Shown here in pieces: positions 7,221 through 25,252 of a stretch of DNA of 64,000 bases. Each line of letters starts with the position of its first letter. Position 1 is the first letter of the stretch. The stretch lies in the NCBI GenBank assembly GCA_030651575.1, contig JAUSFB010000048.1:186001-250000 (forward strand), given 5' to 3'. The DNA comes from Phaeospirillum sp. GTDB taxonomy: Bacteria; Pseudomonadota; Alphaproteobacteria; Rhodospirillales; Magnetospirillaceae. Both the position numbers and the translations under genes were made by a program. The notes beneath the pieces are model-generated. The model saw nothing but the letters and a program-made list of their open reading frames with translations. It ran no database searches and was not told the origin of the DNA.

Positions 7221-8196
<976 letters not shown>

Positions 8197-8200
<4 letters not shown>

Positions 8201-8826
8201 TCTTCGACGTCACCTTGGCCTTCGGCAGCGGCGTTCCGCCTTGGCCGGGCGAACCGGCCCCGTCGATCACCCGCCTGTCCGACATGGCCAAGGGCGATTC
8301 GTGCAATGTCACCCGCATGGACTTCGCGGTTCATTACGCCACCCATCTCGACGCCCCGATTCACTTTGTTCCCGGCGGCGCAGACGTGGCCAGCCTGGAC
8401 CTGAACGTTCTGATGGGGCCGTGTCATGTGGTCCGGATTCCCGACCACATGAATGATATCGGTCCCGAATCGTTCGCGATTCCGTCCGGCTGCACCCGCC
8501 TGCTGGCGCGGACCCGCAATTCGGCGCTGTGGGACAATCCCGCCCATGCTTTCGAGCGTGATTTCGTCGCCTTCACCCCCGAAGCGGCCGCATGGCTGGT
8601 GGAGCGCGGCGTCCGGCTGGTGGGAATCGACTATCTGTCGGTCCAACGCTTCTCCGACGCCGAGCCCACCACTCACCGCATTCTGCTGGGGGCCGGGGTG
8701 ATCGCGGTGGAGGGGCTCGACCTGCGCGGCATCGAACCGGGGGAATACGATCTCGCCTGCCTGCCGCTGAAATTGATCGGCGCCGACGGCTCGCCCTGCC
8801 GGGTGGTCTTGACGACTCGGCGCTGA
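8197..8826 (+). CDS. Cyclase family protein (kynurenine formamidase-like fold)
   Basis: A 209-residue metal-dependent hydrolase-like protein of the cyclase family (PF04199). The metal motif appears as HYATHLDAPIHFVPGG (about residues 46-61), with VGIDYLSVQRF and HRILLGAGVIAVEGLDL further on, which is the standard order. The start is GTG at 8197 overlapping the galE stop (GTGA), so it is coupled to the sugar genes. Members hydrolyse amide or lactone bonds, for example formylkynurenine. In a glycan locus it might deacylate or open a lactone, but its substrate is unknown. The family assignment is firm; the role is not. Confidence 0.8.
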
Positions 8827-8869
8827 CGCGCGAGAAAGAGACTTGTATTAGCAAAGCATCGGAGCTCCC

Positions 8870-9805: not shown

Positions 9806-9881
9806 CCGGAACGTTCAGGCCTGCCCCCCTACCCCTTCCTTGTCATTTCCCGGCGAATGCCGTAGAAGGCAGGGCATCACA

Positions 9882-10847
9882 ATGGGACGAAATCCGATGA
9901 AATATGGTCGCAAGCGGGTACTGGTGACGGGGGGCGCCGGCTTCCTGGGGTCGCATCTGTGCGAACGCCTGCTGGCCGAGGGAAACGACGTGCTGTGCGT
10001 CGACAACCTGTTCACCGGCACCAAGGACAATATCGTCCACCTGCTGGACAATCCCTATTTCGAGCTGGTTCGCCACGACGTGACCTTCCCCCTCTATGTG
10101 GAGGTGGACGAGATCTACAATCTGGCCTGTCCCGCCTCGCCCATTCACTATCAGCGCGACCCGGTCCAGACCACCAAAACCTCGGTGCACGGCGCCATCA
10201 ACATGCTGGGACTGGCCAAGCGGGTCGGAGCCAAGATCTTCCAGGCCTCCACCTCCGAGGTCTATGGCGATCCCGAGGTCCATCCCCAGACCGAGGATTA
10301 TCGCGGCAGCGTCAATCCCATCGGCCCGCGCGCCTGTTACGACGAGGGCAAGCGGTGCGCCGAAACCCTGTTCTTCGACTATTGGCGCCAGCACGACCTG
10401 CGCATCAAGGTGGCGCGCATCTTCAACACCTTTGGTCCGCGCATGCATCCCGACGACGGACGGGTGGTCTCGAACTTCATCGTCCAGGCGCTGGAAGGCC
10501 GCCCGATCACCCTGTATGGCGACGGCAGCCAGACCCGGTCCTTTTGCTTCGTCGACGACCTGATCGAGGGCTTTATCCGCCTGATGGGCTCGGACGACAC
10601 GATCACCGGCCCGATCAATCTTGGAAATCCCCGCGAAATGACGGTGCGGGAACTGGCCGAAATGGTGGTCGCCATGGTGGGGAACAAGGCCGAGATCGTC
10701 TATCGCCCGCTGCCGGCCGACGACCCGTTGCAACGCCAGCCGAACATCGCCCTGGCCAAGGAAAAGCTCGGCTGGGAGCCCAAGGTGACCCTGGAGAACG
10801 GGCTGGAGCGCACCATCGCCTATTTTCGCGAACGCATGAAGGTTTAG
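9882..10847 (+). CDS. UDP-glucuronate decarboxylase-like NDP-sugar epimerase/dehydratase
   Basis: A 321-residue extended SDR closely patterned on UDP-xylose synthase: [64 protein letters not shown], the catalytic YDEGKR and [16 protein letters not shown]. The family oxidatively decarboxylates UDP-glucuronate to UDP-xylose in the cytoplasm. I prefer ATG 9882, because AAGGCAGGG ends 8 nt before it; ATG 9897 is also possible. It is separated from the dehydrogenase by a 76-nt gap without an obvious terminator. A second, more divergent relative occurs at 28451. Confidence 0.85.
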
Positions 10848-10871
10848 GATCGGGCCGGAGCACGGAACGCC

Positions 10872-12389
10872 ATGCCTCCTTGCCGGGATGATATGCCGCG
10901 ACGGATCGCCACCGGTTTGGCGGTTCTCGGCTCCCTCCTGGCGATCGCGTTCTTTACCGCCCGGCTGGGCTCCGCCATCTCGTTCGGTCAACCGTTGCAG
11001 GCCGGAACCAGCGGCTGGGAACAAGAGAACATGTTCGCGGTGTGGCTCTGGCTGCACGGCAAGCCGGTTTACACCCGTCTGACCGATATCCCCTTCGCCA
11101 TGGCGGTCTATAACTGGCTGTTCTACGCCTTCTACGGCACCGGCGCCGGCTGGCTGCTGGGGGCGCTCCATCTGAACGACGCCTGGATTCCCACCGTCAG
11201 CCGCCTGCTGACCCTGGCGGCGCTGCCATTGGCCGGGCTGGGCGCGTTCCGTTGCTTTCGTCATCCCTCATCCGAGAGCGGTCCCCCCCCGGCCATGGCC
11301 GCCGCCGCCGCCGCCCTCTACGTCGCATGCGGTCCACTGATCGGATTCTGGGGGATGACCATCCGCCCCGATTCCAACGCCATGATGCTGGAAATTCTGG
11401 CGGTGGCGGCCTTTTTGGGCCGGACTCCCGCCCGGCCCTGGGGCGGCTTGCTGGCGGCGGTGGTGCTGGCCTATCTGGCGTGGTCGTTCAAGCACACCGC
11501 CATCAACGCGGCCGGGGCCATCTTCCTGCTGTTGCTGTCGCGCCGCCGGTTTGCCGAGGCGGCGGGATTCGCCGTCGCGCTGGGAGGGTTGGCCGCCCTG
11601 ACCCTGACGCTGGGAACCGAAGCCTATTTGCGCAACATCCTGCTGCTGGACTACAAGCGCAGCCTCGACCTGGGCCGAACCGTGGCCGTCCTGGCCAACG
11701 CCGCCTCCAAGACCGCACCCGCCATGGCCGGAATGGCCGTCCTCGCCGGTCTCGCCCTTCTGCGCCCCGCCATCCGCCAGGTGATCGCCGGAAACGAAAG
11801 GCTGCTGCTGGGGGTGACGGGAGCGGTGATATCGACGGCCCTGGCGCTGGCGACCTCGACCCATTCCGGCGCCGCCGAAAACTATTACTTCACCGCCCAT
11901 TTCTTCATGCTGCTGGCCGTGCTGGCGGCTTGGCCCCACCGTCTCCTGACCCCGGTCGTCACCGCCTTCGCCGCCGGCTGGACCGTCCAGGCGGCACTGT
12001 TGGCCTATGCGCTGGGCGGCGGCGCCGTCATCTCGCTGGCGGCGGTGGAGCAGCGCATCGCCACCGCCGCCGCCTGCCTGAAGGGGTTGCCCCAACCGCT
12101 TTACGTGGAAGATCTGTCGCTGGCGCTGCCCTGGATGTCGGGAGGCTCGGTCCCCTATGGATCGAGTTACGCCTATATCGGCGCCCGGCTGGCCGGCACG
12201 CCGATGCAAGAAGACGGCATCGGCGGCATGATCCGGTCCGGCCGGTTCGGATCCCTGGCTCTCAACAGCGAGGATACGCACCAGTTTGACGGAGGCAGCC
12301 TTTTGGGCTACGAGAGGGTGTCGCCTCCTTGTGGCGGCATGACCATCTATCTGAGAAAGGGGACGGCGGCGCCGTCCGATCCGCGATGA
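10872..12389 (+). CDS. Multi-spanning membrane protein, possible GT-C glycosyltransferase
   Basis: A 505-residue integral membrane protein with about ten hydrophobic segments, beginning with RIATGLAVLGSLLAIAFFTA. After the first segment there is a loop EQENMFAVWLWLHGKPVYT that resembles the first-loop pattern of ArnT/PMT-type lipid-linked sugar transferases (acidic residue, then a short 'G-P-V-Y' stretch). KHTAINAAGAIFLLLLSRRR follows mid-protein. No specific family could be named. ATG 10872 is used; ATG 10893 is equally plausible. The stop overlaps the next ATG (ATGA), so it is translated with the methyltransferase-glycosyltransferase fusion, which suggests joint action on a lipid-linked sugar. 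Confidence 0.65.
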   Translation: MPPCRDDMPRRIATGLAVLGSLLAIAFFTARLGSAISFGQPLQAGTSGWEQENMFAVWLWLHGKPVYTRLTDIPFAMAVYNWLFYAFYGTGAGWLLGALHLNDAWIPTVSRLLTLAALPLAGLGAFRCFRHPSSESGPPPAMAAAAAALYVACGPLIGFWGMTIRPDSNAMMLEILAVAAFLGRTPARPWGGLLAAVVLAYLAWSFKHTAINAAGAIFLLLLSRRRFAEAAGFAVALGGLAALTLTLGTEAYLRNILLLDYKRSLDLGRTVAVLANAASKTAPAMAGMAVLAGLALLRPAIRQVIAGNERLLLGVTGAVISTALALATSTHSGAAENYYFTAHFFMLLAVLAAWPHRLLTPVVTAFAAGWTVQAALLAYALGGGAVISLAAVEQRIATAAACLKGLPQPLYVEDLSLALPWMSGGSVPYGSSYAYIGARLAGTPMQEDGIGGMIRSGRFGSLALNSEDTHQFDGGSLLGYERVSPPCGGMTIYLRKGTAAPSDPR

Positions 12390-13879
12390 CTTCACGCCCC
12401 GCCGCCATTGACGTCCTGGAACGTCGCGAGCGGACCCGCGACGAGTATACCGCCCATCGCGATCCCATTGCCGCCGACCGCCTGCGCTGGCTGGCGCAAT
12501 CCTTCCGCCACCTCGTCCATCTGCTGCCCGGCGAAAGCATCCTGGAGATCGGCGCCGGCGACGGAGAGCTGACCCGGATCCTGGTCGAGATGACCCGTGG
12601 CCGCAATCCCATCACCACCGTGACCGCCCTGGAGCGGCCGGCGGAGATCGAGGGTGCCGAATGCATCCGGGTCGAGGATCTGCCCGGCGCCCTGGCGGGC
12701 CGCCGCTTTCGCTATGTGGTCACCAACAATATCCTGGACAGCGACAATACCGGCTATCTGCTGGAACGCATCTTCGACCTGCTGGAAGACGGCGGGCGGG
12801 CGGTCTTCATCGAATCCAATCCGTGGAATCCGCTCTTCGCCATCCGGCGGCTGATCAACGGCTGGCTCGGCCGTCCGGTGGTCCAGGCCCTGCTGGACCG
12901 GACCCTGCTCTACGAGCTGTTCTCCGAAATCGGCTTTATTCGCATCTCGGCCCGCTTCACCGATTTCGTCTATGCCCCGCTGGCGCCCACCGCCCGCATG
13001 GCTTGGCTGTTGCGCAACGCGTCGGTTCTGCTGGAAAACCTGCCCATGGTGCAAGACCTGGCCGGACGTATCTTGCTGCACGCGCAAAAGCCACCGCGCA
13101 GCCTGCCCCGGCCCGAGATGTCGCTGTGCCGCCACGCATCGCTGGAAGGCGCCATTTCCTTCGTCATTCCCTGCCATAACGAGGAAATGAACATCCCGCC
13201 GCTGGTGCATGGCCTGCGCACCTATTATGGCGGCTACATCCACCAGATCGTGCTGGTCAACGACAACAGCCGCGACGGCACCGCCGCCGTCATGGATGCC
13301 CTGGCCGCCGAGGACCCGCGCATCACTCCGGTTCACCGCACGCCGCCCAATGGCGTCGGCCGCGCCCTTCGGGACGGTTACGCCGCCGCCACCGGCCGTT
13401 ACGTCATGTCCATGGATTGCGATTTCCAGCATCTTCTGCCGGAAATGGAAGACATGTTCGACGCCGCCGCCGATGGGGCCGATGCCGTGTTCGGATCGCG
13501 CTTTTCGCGCCAGAGCGTGCTGATCAACTATCCATTCGGCAAGATCCTGGCCAACCGCTCGTTCCATCTGCTGGCCAACCTGGTGTTTCGCTTCGGCCGC
13601 CGCGACGTCACCAACAATCTGAAGCTGATGACCGGAGATCTGGCCCGGCGTCTGGTGATCGAGGAACCGTGGTTCGCCGCCAACGCCGAAATCGGGCTGC
13701 AACTGGCGCTGCTGGGCACGACGGTGCGAGAGGTTCCCATTTCCTGGATCAACCGCACCTTCGATATGGGGCAAAGCTCGTTCAAGGTGCTGGCCTCCGG
13801 CGGCGGCTATGCCCGCGTGCTGTGGCGCATGGCCCGGCTCACCGGGTTCGGCCGGCGGCGGCTGGGCGACATCCGCTGA
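12386..13879 (+). CDS. Fusion: SAM methyltransferase + GT2 glycosyltransferase
   Basis: A 497-residue two-domain protein. Residues about 20-230 are a class I SAM-dependent methyltransferase (ILEIGAGDGELTRIL at 52-66; VTNNILDSDNTGYLLERIF). Residues about 255-490 are a GT-A family 2 transferase of dolichol-phosphate-mannose-synthase type (ISFVIPCHNEEMNIPPLV; QIVLVNDNSRDGTAAVM; metal-binding MSMDCDFQHL at about 342-351). There is no membrane anchor. The frame is continuous across both domains, so this is not two genes. Start ATG 12386 overlaps the preceding stop, and its stop overlaps the next methyltransferase by 1 nt. It may methylate and then transfer a sugar to polyprenyl phosphate; substrate unknown. 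Confidence 0.8.
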   Translation: MTSRPAAIDVLERRERTRDEYTAHRDPIAADRLRWLAQSFRHLVHLLPGESILEIGAGDGELTRILVEMTRGRNPITTVTALERPAEIEGAECIRVEDLPGALAGRRFRYVVTNNILDSDNTGYLLERIFDLLEDGGRAVFIESNPWNPLFAIRRLINGWLGRPVVQALLDRTLLYELFSEIGFIRISARFTDFVYAPLAPTARMAWLLRNASVLLENLPMVQDLAGRILLHAQKPPRSLPRPEMSLCRHASLEGAISFVIPCHNEEMNIPPLVHGLRTYYGGYIHQIVLVNDNSRDGTAAVMDALAAEDPRITPVHRTPPNGVGRALRDGYAAATGRYVMSMDCDFQHLLPEMEDMFDAAADGADAVFGSRFSRQSVLINYPFGKILANRSFHLLANLVFRFGRRDVTNNLKLMTGDLARRLVIEEPWFAANAEIGLQLALLGTTVREVPISWINRTFDMGQSSFKVLASGGGYARVLWRMARLTGFGRRRLGDIR

Positions 13880-14778
13880 TGCGCCATATCGGCTCCTGCC
13901 CGGTCTGCGACGGCGGGCGGTTCGACGAACGCTTCGCCGCCACCTTCCAGGGCGACTGGCGAGACGCGGTTCCCTACTTCCTGACGGAGCGGGTCAAGGC
14001 GGTGCACGGCCGGGTGGTGCGTTGCGCCGATTGCGGCTTTTGCTTCACCACGCCGCAATTCACCCCGGAGGACTACGACCGCATCTATGCCGCGGTGCAT
14101 CTGTCGCGACAAGGAGAGGCATCGACGCCGCAGGGCTCGGGCGTGCGGCTGGCCGAACTGGCGCGCCGGGTCGGGCAGCACGAGACGACAGGGCGGTTTC
14201 TCGACTTCGGCTGCGGCCGGGGAGAGTTCCTCGACGCCATGGGGGCCGGGCATGACGGCCTGGGCTTCGAAGTCGCCGCCGATATTCCCGGCGGGGTTTC
14301 CCGGTCCGGGCGCATCGTCACCGGCAATATCCTGACCCAAGGCCCGGCGGCGGAGCAGGCGGGGCTAACCGATGCCGGCTTTGATTTCATCGCCGCCTGG
14401 GATGTGCTGGAACATCTGCCGGAGCCGGAGGCGCAGATGCGGCGGCTGGGCGATCTCCTCAGGCCGGACGGGCGGCTGTACCTGACCCTGCCCGATGCGG
14501 CCAGCGCCGCCGCGCGGCTGTCGGGGGGCAAGTGGAATCTGCTGTTGCTGGAACATCTGTGGTATTTCGACCCGGCCACCCTGGCGCGGTTCCTGACCCG
14601 TTGCGGCTTCGTGGTCGAGGAAATATCCAAGATCGGCTACCCGGTCGATCTGGAGACCCTGGCGCGCCGCCTCCGCCAGACCTATGGCGACTGGGTGCCG
14701 CCGTTGCCGTCGTTTCTCGGACGGCCGGTGATCTCCCTTCCCATCGGCCTGATGTTCGTGCGCGCCCGCCGGGCCTGA
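13879..14778 (+). CDS. Class I SAM-dependent methyltransferase with N-terminal zinc-type cysteines
   Basis: A 299-residue methyltransferase. Two cysteine pairs (SCPVCDGG, residues 7 and 10; RCADCGF, residues 49 and 52) resemble a zinc knuckle often found at the front of glycan-locus methyltransferases. The SAM motif is RFLDFGCGRGEFLDAM, then FDFIAAWDVLEHLPEPEAQM and LRPDGRLYLTLPD. LLLLEHLWYFDPATL is a common segment of the family. Its ATG shares one base with the previous stop. It probably O-methylates a sugar or lipid-linked intermediate; the target is not visible. Confidence 0.82.
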   Translation: MRHIGSCPVCDGGRFDERFAATFQGDWRDAVPYFLTERVKAVHGRVVRCADCGFCFTTPQFTPEDYDRIYAAVHLSRQGEASTPQGSGVRLAELARRVGQHETTGRFLDFGCGRGEFLDAMGAGHDGLGFEVAADIPGGVSRSGRIVTGNILTQGPAAEQAGLTDAGFDFIAAWDVLEHLPEPEAQMRRLGDLLRPDGRLYLTLPDAASAAARLSGGKWNLLLLEHLWYFDPATLARFLTRCGFVVEEISKIGYPVDLETLARRLRQTYGDWVPPLPSFLGRPVISLPIGLMFVRARRA

Positions 14779-14874
14779 CCCATCCGGGCAAGCGCTTGAC
14801 TATGAACCGACGATATGACATTGACGCTGGCGACCCCCCGGCGAACACACATTCCAAACGCAAGGACGCTTCAC

Positions 14875-15123
14875 ATGGCGGACAGGGCTGAAATCGGGAA
14901 ACGTTTGCTGCTGGTATTCCGCGATGTTTTCGACGACGACTCCCTCGAAATCTTCGATGCCATGACGGCCGAGGACCTCGACGAGTGGGACTCCGTCTCG
15001 CATATCAGCCTGGTGCTGGCGGTAGAGCGCGAATTCGGCGTCAGCCTCAACGCGACCGAAATCGGCGCCCTGGCCAATGTGGGGGCCATGACCGACCTGC
15101 TGTCGGACCGGGCGACCCGGTGA
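14875..15123 (+). CDS. Free-standing acyl carrier protein
   Basis: An 82-residue acidic ACP. The phosphopantetheine site is Ser40 in DEWDSVSHISLVLAVE, followed by the helix-III region FGVSLNATEIGALANVGAM. I start at ATG 14875 because AAGGA lies 8 nt upstream; an earlier in-frame ATG at 14815 would add a basic, non-ACP tail. It is not the fatty-acid ACP (the site is DSVS rather than DSLD, and no fab genes flank it). It is 1 nt from the MaoC gene and leads the MaoC-radical SAM-FkbH group, so it probably carries a short acyl unit made by them. Confidence 0.9.
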   Translation: MADRAEIGKRLLLVFRDVFDDDSLEIFDAMTAEDLDEWDSVSHISLVLAVEREFGVSLNATEIGALANVGAMTDLLSDRATR

Positions 15124-15124
15124 C

Positions 15125-15562
15125 ATGACCGGGCTGGTCGCGGGCCTGCGCCCCAGGGACATCGAAATCGGTCAGTCGGCACGGTTCGAACATCGGGTGA
15201 CCGACGACGACCTTGATCGTTACGCCGCCTTGACCGGCGACATATCGCCGTTGCACATGGACGCGCATTTTGCCCGCTCACGCGGCTTTCGCGGTCGGGT
15301 TGCTCATGGAACTTTCCTGGCGGGGCTAGTATCCCGGCTGTTCGGTGTCCATTTACCAGGACGCGATTGTGTTTTGCACTCCATGTCGGTCAAGTGGGTT
15401 GCGCCGGCTTGCGTCGGCGATCGCGTCGTGGTGGTGGCGACGGTGACCCAGATCTCCGTGGAAGCCGCCGCCATGGCCGCCGAATTGACCATCACCCTGG
15501 CCGAGACCGGGGCCGTCTTGGCCAAGGGCAAGGTACAGGCTGGGTTCACCGGGAGCGATTGA
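15125..15562 (+). CDS. MaoC-like hotdog (R)-enoyl hydratase/dehydratase
   Basis: A 145-residue single-hotdog protein of the MaoC/PhaJ family. The hydratase signature ALTGDISPLHMDAHFARSRG is followed by FRGRVAHGTFLAGLVSRL, with the catalytic Asp at 39 and His at 44. PhaJ-type enzymes hydrate or dehydrate enoyl/3-hydroxyacyl thioesters on CoA or ACP. It starts 1 nt after the ACP stop, and its own stop shares a base with the radical SAM start, so ACP-linked chemistry is likely. The natural substrate is unknown. Confidence 0.87.
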   Translation: MTGLVAGLRPRDIEIGQSARFEHRVTDDDLDRYAALTGDISPLHMDAHFARSRGFRGRVAHGTFLAGLVSRLFGVHLPGRDCVLHSMSVKWVAPACVGDRVVVVATVTQISVEAAAMAAELTITLAETGAVLAKGKVQAGFTGSD

Positions 15563-17196
15563 TGAGCGACGGATACGACTTAATTCTGATTTGCCAGTCC
15601 AATATCGTCGATTACGAGAGCTACTCGCACCTGCCCATCGAGGCGATCGATCGCTACAAGACGCTGGTCTATCCCCGCATGGTCCGCCATGACGACCGCT
15701 TTGTCGGCCATCTGGACGCCATCAACCTGTCGCGGCATGGCGGCACCTATTTCGACGCCGATTACGCCACCCGCCGCCAAAGGCTGAACATCTGGAACAT
15801 GCCGTCGGCCAGCGGCCTGCATCTGGCCAATATCTTGTCGGCCCACGGCATCCGCACCCGCATCATCAACAATATCGATTCCGAATGGGATTGGTTCGAG
15901 GAAGCCTATAACCGCTGCTCGACGCCGCCGCTGGTCGGGATCTCGTCCACCTTCTATCTGGGCTTCAAGGAAGTGGGACGGGTGGCGCGCCGCCTGCGCG
16001 CCTTCGATACCGACATGGAAATCGTGCTGGGCGGCGCGTTCACCAATTCCCGCGCATTGTCAGGCGGGGCCGAAAGCCTGGAACGGCCCATGCGCAAATA
16101 CGGCATCGACTACGTCTTGCACGCCTTCAACTCCGATACGGACCTGCTCGCTCTGATGCTGGCGCGCAAGGGCGGCGCCGACCTGGATCAGGTGGCCAAT
16201 CTGTGCCGCTTCGATGGCGGATTCGCCAAGGGTCGTTTCACCGCCAGCGCCAGCCGCTGGAACCCCCCCATGCTGGACGAGGTTCCGGCCAATTGGGACA
16301 AGGTGGAAGCGCCATACCTGAACCGCACCTTGCAGATCCGCACCGCGTCGGGCTGCCCGTTCTCGTGCTCGTTCTGCTCGTACCCCACCACGGCGGGGGG
16401 GTGGAAAACCATCGAGCCCGAGCGGGTGCGCGCCCATCTGGACGCGGTCAAGCGCATTCCCGGCATCGACCGGCTGATCTTCATCGACGACACCTTCAAC
16501 GTGCCCAAGCACCGCTTCAAGGAATTGCTGGAGATCTTCAAGGACTACGATTTCGAGTGGTTCTCCTTCCTGCGGGTGCAATACGTGGACGAGGACATCG
16601 TCCGGGCCATGAAGGATTCGGGCTGTCGCGGCGTTTATCTGGGGGTCGAATCGGCGGATGACCGCGTGCTGGCCAATATGAACAAGAAGGCGCGGCGCGA
16701 GGACTTCGCCCGTGGCATCGAGCTGCTGAACCGCTTCGACATCACCTCGCTGTCGGCCTTCGTTCTGGGCTTCCCCGGCGAAACCGACGCGTCGATCCAG
16801 GCCAATGTGGACTTCATCGAGAATTGCGGAGTGGATTTCTATTCGCTCAAGGAATTCTTCTATATGGAACACACCGACATCCATAAGAAGCGCGACCAGT
16901 ACGGCCTGACCGGCATGGGCAACCGCTGGTCCCACGACACCATGACCTCAGACCGGGCTTCCGACATCAAGCTGGAGATGTTCCGCTCCATCAAGAACGC
17001 GGTATCGCTCGATCCCGACACCAGCCTGTGGTATCTGGCCTATCTGTACGATCAGGGCTACGGCGTGGACGGAATCAAGGACATGCAGCGTTCCATCAAC
17101 GCGATCAGCATGGATCAGATGGACGGCGACATGAGCTCGAAAACCGCCGCCTGGGACTCGCTTCGGGTCAATGCGGTGAGGAGCGCAGCCGGTTGA
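15562..17196 (+). CDS. Radical SAM protein with N-terminal B12-binding-like domain
   Basis: A 544-residue protein. Residues about 1-210 have the layout of a cobalamin-binding domain seen in B12-dependent radical SAM enzymes (PLVGISSTFYLG, then MEIVLGGAFTNS). The radical SAM core follows, with the [4Fe-4S] motif Cys265-x3-Cys269-x2-Cys272 in SGCPFSCSFCSYP, then RLIFIDDTFNVPKHRF, GCRGVYLGVESADDRVL and SAFVLGFPGETDASI. A C-terminal region of about 120 residues has no recognised fold. Such enzymes commonly methylate unactivated carbon or phosphorus; the layout recalls PhpK-type P-methyltransferases, but this is a weak impression. It sits between MaoC and FkbH with overlapping stop/start codons on both sides. 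Confidence 0.8.
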   Translation: MSDGYDLILICQSNIVDYESYSHLPIEAIDRYKTLVYPRMVRHDDRFVGHLDAINLSRHGGTYFDADYATRRQRLNIWNMPSASGLHLANILSAHGIRTRIINNIDSEWDWFEEAYNRCSTPPLVGISSTFYLGFKEVGRVARRLRAFDTDMEIVLGGAFTNSRALSGGAESLERPMRKYGIDYVLHAFNSDTDLLALMLARKGGADLDQVANLCRFDGGFAKGRFTASASRWNPPMLDEVPANWDKVEAPYLNRTLQIRTASGCPFSCSFCSYPTTAGGWKTIEPERVRAHLDAVKRIPGIDRLIFIDDTFNVPKHRFKELLEIFKDYDFEWFSFLRVQYVDEDIVRAMKDSGCRGVYLGVESADDRVLANMNKKARREDFARGIELLNRFDITSLSAFVLGFPGETDASIQANVDFIENCGVDFYSLKEFFYMEHTDIHKKRDQYGLTGMGNRWSHDTMTSDRASDIKLEMFRSIKNAVSLDPDTSLWYLAYLYDQGYGVDGIKDMQRSINAISMDQMDGDMSSKTAAWDSLRVNAVRSAAG

Positions 17197-19055
17197 CCGC
17201 CCAAACCGGAACAATCGATTGGGCGTCGGTGAAGGCCTGCGCCGCGGCGGGCGACGCCGTCGGCGCCTTTGCCATGCTGGGGCAACTGGCGCGGCCCGAG
17301 GATGACTTCACCACCCAGCGGCGTCATGCCCGTCTGGTTCAGCGGCTGCCCCGCCAGGGGCTGGGCCTGCAACCGCTGAAAGTGGCGCTGCTGGCGCAAT
17401 CGACCACCGACCATTTCGCCGAGATCCTGGGCCTGTGGCTGGCGCTGGCCGGCTATGACGCGGAGATTCACCAGCCCCCCTTCGGGCAGGCGGTGCAAAG
17501 CATCATCAATCCCGCCAGTCCGCTTTACGACTTCGGCGCCGATGTGGTGTGGATGTTCGGCACCTGGCGCGATGTGGGGCTGGAGGTGACGCCCGGCGCC
17601 GACGCCGACGCGGTGGCCGACGCCGTGGCGCGGGCGGTCGAGCGGGAAGCCTCGCTTTGGCAGGCGCTGCGCCAACGCTCGGACGCGCTGATCGTGCAAA
17701 ACACCGCCGATATTCCGGCGGTCGACGTCTTTAGCCATTTCGCCGCCAATGTCGCCTGGAGCCACCGCTCCTTGCTGCACCGCTACAATCTGGCCCTGGC
17801 CGACAGCCTGACGCCCGGCGTGGTGCTGTTCGACCTGGACCACGTCTCGGCCTGCCATGGCAAAAGCCGCTGGACCGATCCCCGCTACTGGCACCACTCC
17901 AAGCACGCCTTCGCCTTCGACGCCATCGGTCTGGTGGCGCATCAGTTCACCCAGCTGGTCCTGGGCGCCAAGGGCCGGGCGCGCAAATGCCTCGTGCTGG
18001 ATCTGGACAACACCCTGTGGGGCGGGGTGATCGGCGATGACGGGCTGGACGGCATCAAACTGGGCAATGGCGCCGCCGGCGAAGCCTTCGTCGATTTCCA
18101 GGCCTATATCCGCCGCCTGAAGGATCGCGGCATCATCTTGGCCGTGTGCAGCAAGAACGAGGACGCCAACGCCCGTGAGCCGTTCCTGAAGCACCCGGAC
18201 ATGCGGCTTGGTATCGACGACATCGCGGTCTTTCGCGCCAATTGGGACAACAAGGCCGACAACATCAAGGCCATCGCCGAGGCCTTGAATATCGGCCTCG
18301 ATTCCCTGGTCTTCGTGGACGACAACCCGGCCGAACGCGCCCTGGTGCGCCGCTTCCTGCCCATGGTTGCGGTCCCCGAGATGCCCGAGGACCCCAGCCA
18401 TTACGTGGAGACGCTGCAACGCGCCCATCTGTTCGAGACGGTCTCGTTCTCCAAGGAGGACGGCGAGCGCAACGAATACTACCGCGCCAACGCGTCGCGC
18501 CAGGAAATCCGGGGCCAGTTTGCCGATCTGGGCGCCTATCAGCGCAGCCTGGAGATGATCGGCCGCGCCGCCGCCATCGAGGCCTTCACCCTGCCGCGCT
18601 CGGCGCAGCTGATCAATAAAAGCAACCAGTTCCACCTGACCGGAACCCGGTATGGCGAGGCCGAGATCGGCGACCTGCTGGCCCAGGATCACTGGGCGGG
18701 ACGCTGCTTCACCCTGAGGGACCGCTTTGGAGACAACGGCCTGATCGCGGTGGTGCTGCTGAGGCGCGATGGCCGGACCGCCCATGTGGATACCTGGGTG
18801 ATGTCGTGCCGGGTCCTGGGGCGCGGCATGGAGGAGTTCATCGTCAACGACATGATGGCGATGGCGCGGACCTGGGGCTGTACCGCCCTTGAGGGCCGTT
18901 ATGTGCCCAGCAAGAAGAACGCCCTGGTCGCCCGGCTTTACCCCCGGCTGGGCTTTGCCGAGGCCGCCGGCCCCACCGGCGAGACCCGCTGGCGGCTCAA
19001 CCTCGGGACCGCCGCTCCCCTGGTCACCCAGATCACGCCGGATTCCGGTCCGTAA
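17193..19055 (+). CDS. FkbH-like protein (HAD-IIIC phosphatase plus GNAT-like domain)
   Basis: A 620-residue protein with the three-part FkbH architecture: an N-terminal region with VALLAQSTTDHFAEIL, a HAD-IIIC core (CLVLDLDNTLWGGVIGDDG at about 266-284; AVCSKNEDANA; FVDDNPAERALVR) and a C-terminal GNAT-like part (SAQLINKSNQFHLTGTRYG; DRFGDNGLIAVV; SCRVLGRGMEEF). FkbH-type enzymes take the C3 unit of 1,3-bisphosphoglycerate, dephosphorylate it and load a glyceryl group on an ACP. The start must be TTG at 17193: it overlaps the previous stop (TTGA), and GAGGAG lies 9 nt upstream. The partner ACP is two genes upstream. Glyceryl-ACP formation is a family-based inference. Confidence 0.88.
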   Translation: MTAQTGTIDWASVKACAAAGDAVGAFAMLGQLARPEDDFTTQRRHARLVQRLPRQGLGLQPLKVALLAQSTTDHFAEILGLWLALAGYDAEIHQPPFGQAVQSIINPASPLYDFGADVVWMFGTWRDVGLEVTPGADADAVADAVARAVEREASLWQALRQRSDALIVQNTADIPAVDVFSHFAANVAWSHRSLLHRYNLALADSLTPGVVLFDLDHVSACHGKSRWTDPRYWHHSKHAFAFDAIGLVAHQFTQLVLGAKGRARKCLVLDLDNTLWGGVIGDDGLDGIKLGNGAAGEAFVDFQAYIRRLKDRGIILAVCSKNEDANAREPFLKHPDMRLGIDDIAVFRANWDNKADNIKAIAEALNIGLDSLVFVDDNPAERALVRRFLPMVAVPEMPEDPSHYVETLQRAHLFETVSFSKEDGERNEYYRANASRQEIRGQFADLGAYQRSLEMIGRAAAIEAFTLPRSAQLINKSNQFHLTGTRYGEAEIGDLLAQDHWAGRCFTLRDRFGDNGLIAVVLLRRDGRTAHVDTWVMSCRVLGRGMEEFIVNDMMAMARTWGCTALEGRYVPSKKNALVARLYPRLGFAEAAGPTGETRWRLNLGTAAPLVTQITPDSGP

Positions 19056-19075
19056 TCCGTGCCCCCGCCCCGAGA

Positions 19076-21175
19076 ATGGCTCATATGAGACCCAATCGAT
19101 CATTCCCCGTCCCGTTCGACCTGGACAGGCCGGCCCTCATCTTCCTGGCGGCGGCGCTGGTCATGGCCGTTCTGAGCTATGGACTGGGACCGGCGTCGTT
19201 CATGCGCTGGCACGACCTGGGCGACAGTCACCTCACCCGCTACATGGCGACCGCCGCCACGGTGAAGGCGGTGGGACTGCACAGCCTGTTTCCATGGGCA
19301 GCCTCCGGAGTCGACCTCGAAGCCACCGGAACCCGGACCACCGACGCCTTCCTGCTGCTGTTCCTGATCCTGCCCGGCTGGGCCGCCATCGCGGCGATGC
19401 GCGTCGCCCAGCTGTTCATCGCCGGCTATTTCATGGACCGGCTGCTGGATCGCCATCTGGGCCTGCCGCGCTGGGCGGCGGTCTGCGGCGGTCTGTTCCA
19501 CCTGCTGTTGCAGGAAAACATGCTGGAACACTATTTCGGCATCGGGGCCATTCCGCTGATCTTGTATGTCCTGACCGGCCTGCTGGCGCGGCGGCCCTGG
19601 CAGGGTCTGGCGTTGGCCGGACTGGCCGGACTGATCTACAGCCAGTTCGTCTTCGCCCCGCTGACGGTGGTGTTCCTGCCGCCCCTGCTGGCCGGCTGGC
19701 TGATCGCCATGCGTCCCCGGCAATGGCCCCTGGCCCTGGGAGTGGGAGCGGCCTTCAGTCTGGCGGCGGTGGTCGGACAGGTGGACATGGTGGCGGCCAT
19801 GGCGGTCAACGGGCCGCTGTCGCACCGCATCGGCCACGGCTTCCAGATGCCGTGGAAGATCATCGGCGGCCCGCGTATCTTGTCCCAGCCGGTGCTGTGG
19901 ATCGGCCTGATCGGAATCATGGCGGCCCGAGGCGACCGGCGCATGGGCTGGGCCTTGCTGGGCGGCCTGACCGGGATCGTGGCGCTGATGATCGTCCAGC
20001 ACCCGATTCGGTTGCTGTTGGCGCCGCATATCCCCCTCGCCGCCGCCTTCACCGGCTATCGCTTTTTCGTGGACGCCCCGGTCCTGATGGCGGGATTGGC
20101 GGCCTGGGGATTGGAACGCATGGTCGCCCGGCTGCGCGGCGACGGCGGTTGGACCCGCAAGACGCGGGGAGTGGTGGCGACGGCGCTGCTGGCAGCGGCG
20201 GCCCTGCCGCTAATGCAGATGGCCGAGGATGCCCGCACCTGGATTCAGTGGGGCGGCTACCGCGCCAATCTGGAGGCCCCGGCCCTGAAGCGTCTGGCCG
20301 CCGAGACGCGGGCCGACGACCCCTTTCGCGTCGCCACCATCCAGGAAAACGGCCTGCAAGCGGGCTTCATGAACGCCTATCCCCTGGAAACCGCCGACGG
20401 CTACATCAACCTGTACCCCCGGCAATATCACGAACTGTGGGAGCTGGTGATCGAGCCCTATCTGGCCCGCAGCCCCGAAATCGCCAGATATTTCACCGAG
20501 AATGGCGCCCGCATCAGCCTTTATACCGATGACGGGCACAGCCTGCCCCTGCCGGTGGAACGCTATTTCCGCACGCCGCTGCTGGCCCTGCTCAATGTCC
20601 GCTATCTGGTGACGACCGTGCCCCTGGACGATGCCGGCCTGGAGCTGTTGCCCGAGACCCGGCCCGACCGCTGGTGGGACGAACTGACCACCGGCGAGAA
20701 GATCCGCCGCCGCCTGGGCGAGAACGTCCACGGCCGCCATGTGGCCCTCTACCGGGTAAAGGACGCCGTGGCCCGCTATCGACTGGTCGGCACGGTCCGG
20801 CTGCACGACAACCGCGCCGGAATGGAGGCCGCGTTACGAACCGCCTCGACCCTGGACCTGGAACACGAGGCCCATCTGTGGCGGGCCGACGCCCCGCGGT
20901 TGGGCCTGGCCGAGGGCGCGGTCCTGGGCAAGGGTGAGGTTCGGATCCAACGCGCCACCCCCGACCGCGTCGAGCTGAACGTGGAAACGGACGCCCCCGG
21001 CCTGCTGGTGGCGGCCAACGCCTTCAGCCCGTTCTGGCGGGCCGATATCGACAATGCCCCGGCAACCCTGACGCCGGCCTATGGCGGAGTGATGGCGGTC
21101 GCCGTTCCCGCCGGCCGGCACACGGTGACGCTAACCTACCGGCCACCGTATTTGCCTGGGGGCGGAGCGCGTTGA
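19076..21175 (+). CDS. Large YfhO-like membrane protein
   Basis: A 699-residue membrane protein with about ten to twelve transmembrane segments in residues 15-390, then a large extracytoplasmic C-terminal domain. The C-terminal domain has LLALLNVRYLVTT and ends NAFSPFWRADIDNAPATL, AVAVPAGRHTVTLTYRPP, the pattern of YfhO-family proteins. YfhO is linked to glycosylation of lipoteichoic acid in Bacillus, and the family resembles GT-C transferases. ATG 19076 is used (19085 also possible). It follows the FkbH-like gene by 20 nt. A lipid-linked sugar transfer outside the inner membrane is plausible but unproven. Confidence 0.7.
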   Translation: MAHMRPNRSFPVPFDLDRPALIFLAAALVMAVLSYGLGPASFMRWHDLGDSHLTRYMATAATVKAVGLHSLFPWAASGVDLEATGTRTTDAFLLLFLILPGWAAIAAMRVAQLFIAGYFMDRLLDRHLGLPRWAAVCGGLFHLLLQENMLEHYFGIGAIPLILYVLTGLLARRPWQGLALAGLAGLIYSQFVFAPLTVVFLPPLLAGWLIAMRPRQWPLALGVGAAFSLAAVVGQVDMVAAMAVNGPLSHRIGHGFQMPWKIIGGPRILSQPVLWIGLIGIMAARGDRRMGWALLGGLTGIVALMIVQHPIRLLLAPHIPLAAAFTGYRFFVDAPVLMAGLAAWGLERMVARLRGDGGWTRKTRGVVATALLAAAALPLMQMAEDARTWIQWGGYRANLEAPALKRLAAETRADDPFRVATIQENGLQAGFMNAYPLETADGYINLYPRQYHELWELVIEPYLARSPEIARYFTENGARISLYTDDGHSLPLPVERYFRTPLLALLNVRYLVTTVPLDDAGLELLPETRPDRWWDELTTGEKIRRRLGENVHGRHVALYRVKDAVARYRLVGTVRLHDNRAGMEAALRTASTLDLEHEAHLWRADAPRLGLAEGAVLGKGEVRIQRATPDRVELNVETDAPGLLVAANAFSPFWRADIDNAPATLTPAYGGVMAVAVPAGRHTVTLTYRPPYLPGGGAR

Positions 21176-21201: not shown

Positions 21202-21251
21202 TCCGCGCCGGCATGGATGGGTTTGTCCGGCCGGGGCTGACCGGAGCTTTT

Positions 21252-22787
21252 ATGCTTTTCAACTCGGCTAATTTTATTTTCTGGTTTCTGCCGATCACCT
21301 TTATCGGCTGGACGATTATACGGACTCGCGCCTCTTGGACTTTATCCCTGATCTGGATGACGGGGGTATCATTGTTCTTCTACGGCTGGTTCAAGCCGGT
21401 CTATGTCCTGATCCTGATGGGATCCATCGTCTTTAATTATCTGGTGGGATTGACCATAAGCGCCGACCGCGCGGCCGGGCGGCGGCGCGGCTGGGTGCTG
21501 GTGGGAGCGATTGCCGCCAATCTCGGTTTCCTCGGCTATTTCAAATACACCAACCTGCTGGTGACGTCGGCCAACCAGCTGCTGGGCAAGTCCTGGGAGA
21601 TCGAGGCCATTCTTCTGCCGCTGGCCATCTCCTTCCATACCTTTCAGCAGATCGCCTATCTGGTGGATATCCAGAAAGGAAAGTGCGAGGAGCACAGCTT
21701 CCTCAACTACTGTCTGTTCGTCACCTTCTTTCCCCAGCTGATCGCCGGCCCCATCGTCCATCACAACGAGATGATGCCCCAGTTGCGCCGGCCGGTGAAC
21801 CGGGGCTTTCTGTCGCCCTGGACCTCGCTGGGTCTGACCGTGTTCGCGGTCGGACTGTTCAAGAAATCGGGCATCGCCGACACCTTCGCCCTTTACGCCG
21901 ACACGGTGTTCGACGCCGCCGCTCAAGGCGGACGGATCAGCCTGATCGAGGCCTGGGGCGGGGCGCTGTCCTACACCTTCCAGATCTATTTCGACTTCTC
22001 GGGCTATTCCGACATGGCCATCGGCCTGGGCCTGCTGTTCGGGGTAAGGCTCCCCATTAACTTCAATTCGCCCTACAAATCGATCAGCATCATCGAATTC
22101 TGGCGGCGCTGGCACATTACCTTGTCGCGCTTCCTGCGGGACTATCTATACATCCCGTTGGGAGGAAACCGCTTTGGGCCGCTACGGCGCTCTACCAATC
22201 TGATGATCACCATGTTGCTGGGCGGGTTGTGGCACGGAGCCAACTGGACCTTCCTGGCCTGGGGCGGCCTGCATGGATCCTACCTGCTGCTCAATCACCT
22301 GTGGCGCACCACGACGGGCCGCGCCGCGCCATCGTCGCCGCTGGGTCGGGCGGTCGGCTGGGGCCTCACCTTCCTGGCGGTGGTGGTCGCCTGGGTATTC
22401 TTCCGCGCCGCCAGCTTCGAAGCCGCCTTCGTGGTCATCAAGGGCATGGCCGGGCTGAACGGCGTGGCGCTGCCCTCGGTCATCCTGGCCCAGGCGGGGG
22501 CGCTGGGCGAAACGCTGGGCCGCTGGGGGGTCGAGGCGCTGCCCGGCAAGATGCCGTATTTCTTCGGCGCGACCGAAATTGCCGCCCTGGCGGGAGCGCT
22601 GGCGGTCTGCCTGCTGCTTCCCAATGTGAACGAGGCCCTGATCCGCCGCCGGCGCGGACGGGCGGGCGGGCGGGCCTGGACTCTCTGGCGCGAAGCCCCA
22701 CTCTGGGCCGTGGCCGGCGGAGCGGCGGCGGCATTCTCCCTGTTCGGCGTCATGCGCGAGAACAGCTTCATCTATTTTCAGTTCTAG
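21252..22787 (+). CDS. MBOAT family membrane-bound O-acyltransferase
   Basis: A 511-residue polytopic membrane protein of the AlgI/DltB type, which passes acyl groups across the inner membrane for polysaccharide O-acylation. It shows QIYFDFSGYSDMAIGLG, FNSPYKSISIIEFWRRWHIT and the catalytic His328 in LGGLWHGANWTFLAWGGLHG. The start is ATG 21252 (MLFNSANFIFWFLP), with GGAG 5 nt upstream; an earlier ATG at 21213 would add a non-family tail. The next gene encodes an SGNH-type protein, the usual extracytoplasmic partner. The acyl donor could be acetyl or, speculatively, the group on the nearby ACP. Confidence 0.9.
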   Translation: MLFNSANFIFWFLPITFIGWTIIRTRASWTLSLIWMTGVSLFFYGWFKPVYVLILMGSIVFNYLVGLTISADRAAGRRRGWVLVGAIAANLGFLGYFKYTNLLVTSANQLLGKSWEIEAILLPLAISFHTFQQIAYLVDIQKGKCEEHSFLNYCLFVTFFPQLIAGPIVHHNEMMPQLRRPVNRGFLSPWTSLGLTVFAVGLFKKSGIADTFALYADTVFDAAAQGGRISLIEAWGGALSYTFQIYFDFSGYSDMAIGLGLLFGVRLPINFNSPYKSISIIEFWRRWHITLSRFLRDYLYIPLGGNRFGPLRRSTNLMITMLLGGLWHGANWTFLAWGGLHGSYLLLNHLWRTTTGRAAPSSPLGRAVGWGLTFLAVVVAWVFFRAASFEAAFVVIKGMAGLNGVALPSVILAQAGALGETLGRWGVEALPGKMPYFFGATEIAALAGALAVCLLLPNVNEALIRRRRGRAGGRAWTLWREAPLWAVAGGAAAAFSLFGVMRENSFIYFQF

Positions 22788-22789
22788 CC

Positions 22790-23791
22790 ATGTCGCCTCC
22801 CCCACGGCCTCATTCCCGACATCGGCGGCGAACCGTCCGCTATCTGTGCTGGTTCGCGGCCAGTTTCGTGCTGAGTGCGCTCCTGGGCATGGCCTATCTG
22901 GTTCATAGCCGGGCGCGGATCACCGAATGCGTCGGCGCCCATTACAGCGATGACGACTACATGGCCTGGTGCGGCTCGGCCGAGTTCCAGGACTACGAGC
23001 ACGGGGCCTACTTCTGGGATCTGGAACCGCCGGTCATGGACAATGTCCGCAAGGCCGATGTGCTGTTTCTCGGAAACTCGCTGGGCCAAAGCGCCTTTTC
23101 CACCGAGCATATCCGCCGCTATTTCGCCGAGCGGGGGCTGACGCATCACCTGCTGGGATTCGGCTTTGGCGAGGCCAATTCCTTCCCCGAGGCCATCTTC
23201 CGCAAATTCGGCCTGACTCCCCGGATCGTGGTGGCCAATGCCGCCTCCTTCTTCCTGGACAATCCCACCGGGCTGGCCAGCAGCGTGATGTTTCCCAGTT
23301 CGGCCACCATGCTGGAATACAAGATCAAACGCTGGCTGCAACCCGTTCATCGCCGGGCCTGCGAACAGGGCGGCGCGACCCTGCGCAAGCTGGTCTGCGG
23401 CGAGGCGCCGACCATCTACCGCTCCCGCAGGGACGGGCATTGGCGCCACCGCAACTTCCCCGACGGCAAACGGCCGCTGATCTTCACCGGGCCGCCGGAA
23501 AGCCTGCCGCCGTCTCATCCCCATGTGCTGGCCGCGCTGCGGTTGCGCGACGCCGTCGCCGCCTGGGGCGGCTGCCTGGTACTGAGTTCAACCCCGTCCA
23601 GCGACGGCCGCTATGTGGCCAATGCCCGCGCCATCGCCGCCGCCAGCGGCATTCCCCTGATCGTTCCCGATCAGTTAAGCGACCTGACCGCCTATGACGG
23701 CGAGCACCTCGACCCTCCCAGCGCAGAACGGTTCTCGGCCGGCTTCACCGCCGGACTGGATCAGGCGCTGACCCATTGCCGCACCCCATAA
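22790..23791 (+). CDS. Membrane-anchored SGNH/GDSL-like protein (MBOAT partner)
   Basis: A 333-residue protein with one N-terminal membrane segment (about 16-38, YLCWFAASFVLSALLGMAYL) and a periplasmic domain. The SGNH block I appears as VLFLGNSLGQSAF with Ser97, and the terminal Asp/His pair as DGEHLDPP (Asp303, His306). This is the arrangement of AlgJ/AlgX/DltD-type acyl-transfer partners. Its ATG is 2 nt after the MBOAT stop. The overall sequence is divergent and I could not assign a named family, so the role rests on motifs and the neighbour. Confidence 0.7.
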   Translation: MSPPPRPHSRHRRRTVRYLCWFAASFVLSALLGMAYLVHSRARITECVGAHYSDDDYMAWCGSAEFQDYEHGAYFWDLEPPVMDNVRKADVLFLGNSLGQSAFSTEHIRRYFAERGLTHHLLGFGFGEANSFPEAIFRKFGLTPRIVVANAASFFLDNPTGLASSVMFPSSATMLEYKIKRWLQPVHRRACEQGGATLRKLVCGEAPTIYRSRRDGHWRHRNFPDGKRPLIFTGPPESLPPSHPHVLAALRLRDAVAAWGGCLVLSSTPSSDGRYVANARAIAAASGIPLIVPDQLSDLTAYDGEHLDPPSAERFSAGFTAGLDQALTHCRTP

Positions 23792-23804: not shown

Positions 23805-25250
23805 ATGACCGACAAGCCCCGCCTGCTCTCCGTCGCCGATGCCGAAGCGTTGTCCATCCAGGATGTGTGGCGGCTGCACCGCGACCATATCAGCCCCCGG
23901 CAGGTGAACATCTTCTCGTCATTCGGCTATGGCCACGACCTGTTCACCGAGGCCGAGGGTGTATGGCTGACCACGTCGGAAGGGCGGAAGATTCTCGACT
24001 TCACCGGTGGATTCGGGGTGCTCAACCACGGCCACAACCATCCGCGCATCCTGAAGGTCCGCCGCGAATATCAGGACAAACGGCGGGTGGAGGTGCACAA
24101 GATCGTCTTCTCGCCGATGATGGTGGCCCTGGCCCACAACGTGGCGGCCTTGTTGCCCGGCGACCTCAACAAGTGCTTCTTCCCCAATTCGGGCGCCGAG
24201 GCGGTCGAAGGCGCCCTCAAGGTCGCCTACAAATCCCGGCCGGCGCGGCGCGACCATGTGCTTTACGCCGAGGATTCCTTCCACGGCAAGCTGATCGGGT
24301 CGGGCACCATCACCGGCTGCCAGTCCAAGGTGTGGGACTTCCCGCGCATGGCCAACACCGCCAGCTTCCGCCGCAACGACCTGGACTCGGTGGAGCGTCA
24401 GGTTGCCGCCCTGCGCAAGACCGACGGATCGTCCAATATCTACGCCATCGCCATCGAGCCGTTCCACGCCACCACCATGACCACCTGCACCGGCGAATTC
24501 CTGATCGGCCTGCGACGCATCTGCGACCGCGAGGGCATCGCGCTGATCTTCGACGAGGTCTATTCCGGCTGGGGCAAAACCGGCCATCTGTTCTATTTCA
24601 TGGCCCACGACGTGGTGCCCGACATCTTGTGCATGTCCAAATCGTTCGGCGGCGGCAAGGCCTCCATTTCGGGTCTGGTGGTGCGCGATCCGGTGTTCGC
24701 CGCCGCCTACGGCACCGACGCCTCGGCCCTATTGCAGTCCAGCACCTATAACGGTTTCGGCGAGGAGTGCGCCACCGCCCTGGAAGCGGTCAACATCATG
24801 ATCGAGGAAGACCTGCCCGGCCGGGCGCGCCACATCCACGAGGTGCTGAACGCCGGCCTGACGGCGCTGGCAGCCAAATATCCCGGCACCATCCGCGAGA
24901 TCCGGGGCTATGGCGGCTTCAACGGCGTAGTGCTGGACTCGCCGTTCGACCTGATCGAAAAGGCTCTGGCCCATGTGCCGAATCTGCTGGGCGATAAGCG
25001 CTTCTTCATCAACAAGATCGCCGCCGCCGCGGTGGCCGACGAGATGTATCGCACCCACGGCATCCTCACCACCATGATCGACAACGGCGATCTGGTGGTC
25101 TATGCCGCCCTGCCCAGCCTCGTGGTGAACGATTCCGAGCTGCGCCAGTTCCTCGACGCCCTGGACAAGGTGCTGGACAAGGGCCTGACCCGGGTCTCGG
25201 CCGAGTTCGTCGGCTCCAAACTGATGATGATGCTGAAAGGTCTGACCTGA
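23805..25250 (+). CDS. Class III PLP-dependent aminotransferase
   Basis: A 481-residue fold-type I aminotransferase resembling diaminobutyrate/ectoine-type enzymes (EctB/Dat-like). It has FTGGFGVLNHGHNHPRIL, CFFPNSGAEAVEGALKVAY, the PLP aspartate in LIFDEVYSGWGKTG (Asp250) and Lys279 in CMSKSFGGGKASISG as the Schiff-base lysine. AAGGAC lies 9 nt before ATG 23805. It is not of the DegT/DnrJ family normally used to aminate NDP-sugars, so its substrate in this locus is unclear; a small keto acid or an open-chain sugar derivative are options. Confidence 0.85.
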   Translation: MTDKPRLLSVADAEALSIQDVWRLHRDHISPRQVNIFSSFGYGHDLFTEAEGVWLTTSEGRKILDFTGGFGVLNHGHNHPRILKVRREYQDKRRVEVHKIVFSPMMVALAHNVAALLPGDLNKCFFPNSGAEAVEGALKVAYKSRPARRDHVLYAEDSFHGKLIGSGTITGCQSKVWDFPRMANTASFRRNDLDSVERQVAALRKTDGSSNIYAIAIEPFHATTMTTCTGEFLIGLRRICDREGIALIFDEVYSGWGKTGHLFYFMAHDVVPDILCMSKSFGGGKASISGLVVRDPVFAAAYGTDASALLQSSTYNGFGEECATALEAVNIMIEEDLPGRARHIHEVLNAGLTALAAKYPGTIREIRGYGGFNGVVLDSPFDLIEKALAHVPNLLGDKRFFINKIAAAAVADEMYRTHGILTTMIDNGDLVVYAALPSLVVNDSELRQFLDALDKVLDKGLTRVSAEFVGSKLMMMLKGLT

Positions 25251-25252
25251 GC

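Follow-up and report, generated by a model that had tools for sequence, protein, structure and literature searches.

We analyzed a 64,000-nucleotide stretch of a Phaeospirillum sp. genome (GenBank assembly GCA_030651575.1, contig JAUSFB010000048.1, positions 186,001 to 250,000; hereafter the window, whose own numbering is used throughout). At positions 14875-19055, it contains four genes, all on the plus strand and tightly joined, coding for a free-standing acyl carrier protein (ACP), a MaoC-type hydratase, a radical S-adenosylmethionine (SAM) protein, and an FkbH-family protein, which are a real conserved unit, well supported as a functional one. The unit extends beyond the four to a membrane-bound O-acyltransferase (MBOAT) gene and, outside polyketide synthase (PKS) clusters, to an SGNH-type gene. 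Our interpretation, which is tentative and which we doubt slightly more than we believe, is that this is an acyl-ACP cassette: FkbH would load the carrier, the radical SAM and MaoC proteins would edit the bound unit, and the DltB-like MBOAT, with its SGNH-type neighbor, would transfer the product to an extracytoplasmic glycan. The parts are known and the combination is new; we found no description of an FkbH/MaoC/radical SAM/ACP/MBOAT set in the open-access literature, in line with the first-pass annotation of this DNA, which knew of no such gene set as a route to a glycan decoration.

14875-15123, + strand, free-standing ACP, phosphopantetheine Ser40 in W-D-S-V
15125-15562, + strand, MaoC-type hydratase/dehydratase (PF01575, 63.3 bits, cut-off 27)
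15562-17196, + strand, radical SAM protein, PhpK-like (PF04055, 86.6 bits, cut-off 29.5; CxxxCxxC at residues 265-272)
17193-19055, + strand, FkbH-family HAD protein (TIGR01686, 282.5 bits, cut-off 146.65)
21213-22787, + strand, MBOAT O-acyltransferase, DltB-like (PF03062, above cut-off)
22784-23791, + strand, SGNH-type protein with an N-terminal helix, its gene overlapping the MBOAT gene by 4 nt

The ACP and MaoC genes are separated by a 1-nt gap, while MaoC and the radical SAM gene overlap by 1 nt and the latter and FkbH by 4 nt, so that the coordinates and spacing given in the first-pass annotation were correct, as was its placement of the MBOAT downstream; the SGNH-type gene had not been mentioned there. 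The TTG start of FkbH was chosen by us, and the open frame extends further upstream. Key motifs are present in all four proteins. The source assembly (4.23 Mb, 99.99% complete) belongs to a Magnetospirillum-like alphaproteobacterium.

Conservation of the cassette

Nine of 99 related genomes, that of the window included, encode a relative of the radical SAM protein at 58-74% identity, the tenth match being only 31% identical. An alignment of eight sequences (A1: the window and seven of its eight close relatives, leaving out L029 and the 31% identical L032) was used to scan GTDB contigs and gave 21 named loci, designated by L numbers, with radical SAM proteins 49-74% identical; the scan finds only loci holding one of two short peptide patterns and is thus not exhaustive. 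By profile search, MaoC is present in 20 of the 21 loci and FkbH, ACP, and MBOAT in 18 each (17 for the ACP by tblastn; that of L039 is only 28% identical), and the three genomes without FkbH at the locus encode it elsewhere. All four accompany the radical SAM gene in 14 of the 21 loci, as they do in the window, and in most loci the genes are clustered. The three loci without an MBOAT are L034, L049, and L053, the last two meeting a contig end near the module on one side.

FkbH is encoded in every genome with a radical SAM locus (21/21) versus none of 14 control genomes and, within the 99 relatives, in 9/9 genomes with a close radical SAM protein versus 14/90 without (Fisher p 5e-7, uncorrected for relatedness). 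The cassette is spread across phyla and occurs in cultured strains as well, such as Paramagnetospirillum marisnigri (L036). L032, used as outgroup and contrast, gave no MaoC, FkbH, ACP, or MBOAT match in 17.9 kb. A plasmid search with the radical SAM protein returned 119 records, all below 60% identity (21-27% for the matches listed) and none covering 80% of the query, and, across 385 genomes of the class, searching at E 1e-60 recovered the window's own copy only.

Two observations concern single loci. The radical SAM relative of L032 (541-10387) has a B12-binding match above the Pfam cut-off and adjoins an open frame of 2678 aa. In L025, with counterparts in L026 by clustering (both Magnetospirillum relatives), a pair of asparagine-synthase-like genes lies ahead of the module, and the MBOAT is followed by a heparinase-like gene (3175-7851; 15293-17005).

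FkbH, ACP, and MaoC

As judged from their alignments, FkbH and the ACP hold the residues expected for a glyceryl-ACP route. Enzymes of the FkbH family carry the glyceryl group on a Cys, and C539, together with D270, D272, D376, and D377, is invariant in the 16 FkbH sequences aligned (12 of the 18 loci, the window, the second copy of L034, L058, and L033). The sole solved relative by sequence is 3SLR, B. fragilis BF1531 (255 bits over residues 54-421). In pathways already described, transfer of glyceryl to free ACPs or peptidyl carrier proteins has been proposed for enzymes of the FkbH type (PMC7489565, PMC13122637, PMC8949500), and we propose that the FkbH of the window is a glyceryl transferase/phosphatase acting on 1,3-bisphosphoglycerate. 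In the ACP, W38, D39, and S40 are invariant in all 13 sequences aligned (10 of the 18 loci, the window, L058, and L033); it scores 22.7 bits against NF002148, a profile of one ACP subfamily with a cut-off of 71, and has no Pfam match at E 0.001. The Asp-His pair of MaoC (D39 and H44) is likewise invariant, in 18/18 sequences (16 of the 20 loci, the window, and L033).

The radical SAM protein

The best family of the radical SAM protein is PhpK (TIGR04479), matched over the full length at 381.8 bits, under the cut-off of 600, versus 74 bits over the core only for AprD4. Cysteines 265, 269, and 272 of the CxxxCxxC motif, which is common to radical SAM enzymes generally, are invariant in an alignment of 20 sequences (18 of the 21 named loci, without L039, L050, and L052, plus the window and L032). 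A structural model (predicted local distance difference test [pLDDT], 85) matches along most of its length the folds of MgmA, TsrM, AprD4, CysS, and OxsB (Z 20.9-22.8), and the top matches are mostly B12 radical SAM enzymes. CysS and TokK are also among the fold matches, and both have deposited complexes with pantetheinylated substrates. Since the sequence favors PhpK over AprD4, the protein is probably a PhpK-type methyltransferase that depends on B12 and, PhpK being its closest family, C-methylation is a better guess than O-methylation. The first-pass annotation had identified all four proteins of the unit rightly, while its term "B12-type" for this one rests on the PhpK family and on a B12-binding match below threshold (PF02310, 21.2 bits, cut-off 32.1).

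The same two scores, the unmet PhpK cut-off and the subthreshold B12 match, are the reason why a different activity is a live rival, even if we consider it unlikely: an AprD4-like 1,2-diol dehydratase acting on the glyceryl diol, which would yield a deoxygenated, unmethylated C3 acyl group. Glycerate is indeed a 1,2-diol; among solved structures, AprD4 comes nearest to the radical SAM alignment in sequence (6fd2, 66 bits, core only), and by fold it ties with the other candidates (Z 21.4). Against a dehydratase stands the extent of the PhpK match, full length as opposed to core only for AprD4, and no reductase is found among the five conserved proteins.

The MBOAT and its proposed SGNH-type partner

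The MBOAT scores 166.9 bits against DltB (TIGR04091; cut-off 375), sequence comparison with solved structures yields just two DltB sequences, and H341 is invariant in the 19 proteins aligned. The next gene after the MBOAT, on the same strand, is of the SGNH type in all nine non-PKS loci with an MBOAT, as in the window. These proteins are only 15-21% identical to that of the window, and G97, S99, P271, and H308 are invariant in 10/10. A profile of the nine and the window found no match in the nine loci of the PKS clade (L043 being covered for only 428 nt past the MBOAT); as the genes had been picked by eye by their position after the MBOAT, the profile is bound to recover its own loci, and the lack of matches in the PKS clade is its one informative result.

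The model of the window's SGNH-type protein, of modest confidence (pLDDT 66), has an N-terminal helix and an SGNH fold, whose matches are mostly esterases and include PatB, OatA, and a Salmonella lipopolysaccharide acetyltransferase at Z 10.8-11.6. The protein itself (22784-23791) has no Pfam match at E 0.05, that to DltD (PF04914) included. The homolog in L028, the same gene as in L038, has a weak DltD match (E 0.0014, under the cut-off), and for the partner alignment AlgX was the only solved sequence matched with E <0.1 (E 0.0009). The MBOAT-SGNH pair outside PKS clusters looks suited to the far side of the membrane, and we propose the SGNH-type protein as the extracytoplasmic partner of the MBOAT.

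One of the closest known arrangements is the Dlt system (DltA, DltC, DltB, DltD) for the D-alanylation of teichoic acids, with an acyl group on a carrier protein, an MBOAT, and an SGNH-type partner. The window resembles it in the small carrier protein that would bear the acyl group, in an MBOAT nearest DltB by sequence, and in the adjoining SGNH-type gene. It differs in having FkbH instead of an adenylating enzyme (a Pfam scan of 31 window proteins, 621-40957, found no AMP-binding family), in the additional radical SAM and MaoC proteins, in the DltB score below the cut-off, and in the Gram-negative hosts. The pairing of an MBOAT with an SGNH-type protein is also that of AlgI with AlgJ/AlgX and of PatA with PatB, machines that move acetyl groups; unlike in these, the conserved set around the pair includes an ACP and enzymes for building the acyl group.

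Proposed pathway

From the gene set, its conservation, the motifs, and the MBOAT-SGNH pairing, all of them observed, we infer the chemical steps and the acceptor as follows. FkbH, as its family and intact residues suggest, would take 1,3-bisphosphoglycerate, strip the phosphate, and attach glyceryl to the ACP dedicated to it. C-methylation of the ACP-bound unit would fall to the radical SAM protein, probably with B12, and MaoC would dehydrate or hydrate it at C2-C3, in either order. By chemical reasoning, the outcome would be a 2-oxobutyryl-type group if the glyceryl C3 is methylated before MaoC acts, and a pyruvyl-type group if MaoC acts first. At the membrane, the DltB-like MBOAT would receive the completed acyl group from the ACP and, together with the SGNH-type protein, transfer it to a hydroxyl of a glycan that the surrounding locus makes and that lies outside the cytoplasm. 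The whole would work like the Dlt system, with FkbH replacing the adenylating DltA.

Several findings weigh against this proposal. No MBOAT occurs within 21.6 kb in L034, which has no contig end near the module, and the sole ACP and MaoC there adjoin a second FkbH some 6 kb off; L036 has no ACP in 21.6 kb, and, at the locus itself, L039 has neither MaoC nor FkbH, and L043 and L046 have neither FkbH nor ACP. In L052 and L053, FkbH (40-41% identical) and MaoC (32-34%) are more divergent. The sample is also less independent than its size suggests: 15 of the 21 loci come from metagenome-assembled genomes, two groups of near-copies are included (L041, L042, L044, and L051; L043 and L046), and eight loci are the same records as relatives in the 99-genome survey. 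In the window itself, the MBOAT lies 2.2 kb downstream of FkbH, beyond another membrane protein gene. Cobalamin use by the radical SAM protein is putative, the family scores missing their cut-offs, and the fold alone is no proof of a cobalamin site, given the tie with AprD4 and the runners-up MtaB, MiaB, and RimO, which are not B12 enzymes, close behind at Z 19.7-20.6. That the folds do not cleanly part B12 enzymes from these three, and that the ACP and MaoC of L034 may belong to its second FkbH, are the reasons why we hold the proposal only tentatively.

The most specific version is more doubtful still: glycolytic 1,3-bisphosphoglycerate would become an ACP-bound acid that is C-methylated by a cobalamin radical SAM enzyme and exported onto a polysaccharide by a Dlt-like MBOAT/SGNH pair, the acyl-building set having entered polyketide clusters, chiefly those of Acetobacteraceae and their relatives, on a single occasion. 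If true, enzymes in the style of secondary metabolism would channel a glycolytic intermediate into a surface glycan, and a radical enzyme would methylate an acid bound to a carrier; MBOAT/SGNH acylation would reach past acetyl and D-alanyl to a custom-built acyl group; and one shared cassette would tie PKS clusters to glycan loci. The gene set is compact and open to testing.

Nonulosonates and a second FkbH locus

Alternatively, an amino sugar or nonulosonate might receive the acyl group while still in the cytoplasm, as is presumably the case for the di-O-methylglyceroyl group of Campylobacter pseudaminic acid, the MBOAT then acting separately. We regard this as improbable. The window does encode a NeuB-type synthase above the cut-off and a cytidylyltransferase-like protein; NeuB is found with a UDP-GlcNAc 2-epimerase at L024/L034 and further at L047 and L050, with the epimerase also at L030 (a record identical to L047), and L034 is without an MBOAT. 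The Campylobacter literature describes an FkbH-domain gene, cj1302, in the C. jejuni flagellar locus (PMC7099621) and a di-O-methylglyceroyl pseudaminate on its flagellin (PMC3068675), so that the cj1302 region resembles the window in having an FkbH-domain gene in a nonulosonate glycan locus and a known glyceroyl sugar derivative. Against it, NeuB matches occur in just three of the 21 fetched loci, with flanks covered to 10 kb, as opposed to an MBOAT in 18, and the genome of the window has a separate FkbH locus near flagellin.

This second FkbH locus of the genome (L033; G000:C68:114001-134000, 4729-19644) lies about 6 kb from the flagellin gene and codes for ACPs, a 3-ketoacyl-ACP synthase III (KAS III), a fusion of MaoC with a short-chain dehydrogenase/reductase (SDR), an SDR, FkbH, and a methyltransferase, plus ligase-like and N-acetyltransferase-like genes recognized by eye; no radical SAM or MBOAT match was found in the 20 kb examined. 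Its KAS III and ACPs presumably resemble cj1303 and cj1304, and it is likely a flagellin-glycan acyl pathway. To our knowledge, the cj1302 region has no radical SAM, MBOAT, and SGNH set. The precedent of Campylobacter flagellins, invoked by the first-pass annotation for the window module, is real, but L033 is its better counterpart and the window cassette is a different thing.

A second ACP-MaoC-SDR-FkbH set is present in L034 (about 17580-20750), some 6 kb from the radical SAM-FkbH pair and with NeuB in the locus; its FkbH is 44% identical to that of the window. In bryostatin biosynthesis, MaoC and a reductase convert glyceryl-ACP to lactyl-ACP, a conversion that our open-access literature search did not confirm. 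We rejected such a lactyl-ACP route for the window cassette; the second FkbH loci that include an SDR (L033 and L034) suit it better.

Relatives in polyketide clusters

FkbH and an ACP are the proposed start of the methoxymalonyl pathway, according to PMC7489565, and nine of the related loci are tied to modular PKS genes. A ketosynthase (KS) motif in a frame of more than 2000 aa is found on the fetched stretch of L039, L041, L042, L044, L045, and L051; L054 has a KS on the same contig; and L043 and L046 have an FkbH copy elsewhere in the genome about 2 kb from a KS, a distant copy on which their count as PKS linked depends, such that other labeling would break the single-clade pattern. So labeled, the nine form one clade of the radical SAM tree (support 98/98, recovered in 98% of 200 bootstrap trees), of which six rows are near-copies in two groups. 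The other 12 loci and the window fall outside it, L052 and L053 being its sisters; the deepest rows come from Desulfobulbaceae and Omnitrophota, a part of the tree with open forks and a very long branch to the outgroup. On this tree, a single recruitment into PKS clusters is the simplest reading, its direction not being proven. The absence of PKS genes, noted for the window by the first-pass annotation, is thus not general for the cassette.

We consider it very improbable that the window carries an extender-unit operon of the methoxymalonyl type serving a PKS. An acyl-CoA dehydrogenase-like gene was seen by eye before MaoC in L043 and L046; however, neither an acyl-CoA nor a 3-hydroxyacyl-CoA dehydrogenase family is found among the 31 window proteins scanned, and the PKS linkage is confined to the one clade. 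Like the glyceryl-ACP pathways of tetronates and methoxymalonyl units, the window has an FkbH above the TIGR01686 cut-off beside a free ACP; unlike them, as described in PMC7489565, its conserved set is without a FabH-like enzyme, a dehydrogenase, and an O-methyltransferase. A methoxymalonyl-ACP operon would be marked by two dehydrogenases plus an O-methyltransferase beside FkbH and ACP; the dehydrogenases have no match among those 31 proteins, and the methyltransferase at 13879-14778 recurs in just one of the 21 related loci. The KS search of its own assembly gave one full-length match (a 465-aa frame) and two short partial ones, none on the window contig, and no modular PKS was found, as the first-pass annotation had supposed; unless a PKS was lost from the assembly, this rules out a PKS extender pathway here. 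The genomes of L034, L035, L036, L037, L038, L040, L049, and L050 also gave no long-frame KS among the matches listed (unlisted ones being weaker than E 4e-36), and modular-type KS frames occur on other contigs in those of L047, L048, L052, and L053.

That the radical SAM protein is the P-methyltransferase of a phosphinate pathway, as PhpK is for phosphinothricin, is barely credible even with PhpK as its best family, since its score is under the PhpK cut-off, a phosphoenolpyruvate mutase is above the cut-off in only 4 of 22 genomes and without a match at E 1e-10 in 7, one of them the window's own, for which we rejected the pathway.

Between the ACP and the PKS of L041 and L045 (about 6100-7330, minus strand), immediately after the ACP gene, there is a small gene whose product resembles, by eye, an HxxxD condensation-type acyltransferase; the L045 copy has no Pfam or PDB match.

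Surrounding genes

The other genes examined around the cassette are listed here as context, and the surrounding glycan locus also encodes sugar-nucleotide epimerase-type proteins.

2480-4813, + strand, nonulosonate (NeuB-type) synthase with an N-terminal extension (TIGR03569, 435 bits, cut-off 399.65)
5217-6122, + strand, CMP-nonulosonate cytidylyltransferase-like protein (PF02348, 79 bits, above cut-off; TIGR03584 PseF under cut-off); the real start is probably further in
12386-13879, + strand, GT2 glycosyltransferase (PF00535, 88.9 bits, above cut-off)
13879-14778, + strand, SAM-dependent methyltransferase (PF13489, 87.7 bits)
19076-21175, + strand, large membrane-type protein, DUF6044/YfhO-like (PF19510, 56.6 bits, above cut-off; PF09586 under cut-off)
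25253-26644, + strand, DprE1-like FAD oxidase (NF053785, 231 bits, under the cut-off of 500)

Of the two methyltransferases that had been annotated upstream of the module, the one at 13879-14778 stands, but that at 12386-13879 is the GT2 glycosyltransferase, with an N-terminal methyltransferase match (PF13489, 25.8 bits) under the cut-off of 27. A counterpart of the 13879-14778 gene was found in only one of the 21 related loci (L052), so it is not conserved with the module. Downstream, at 23805-26644, a class III aminotransferase gene is followed by that of the DprE1-like oxidase, which hints at polyprenyl-linked sugars.

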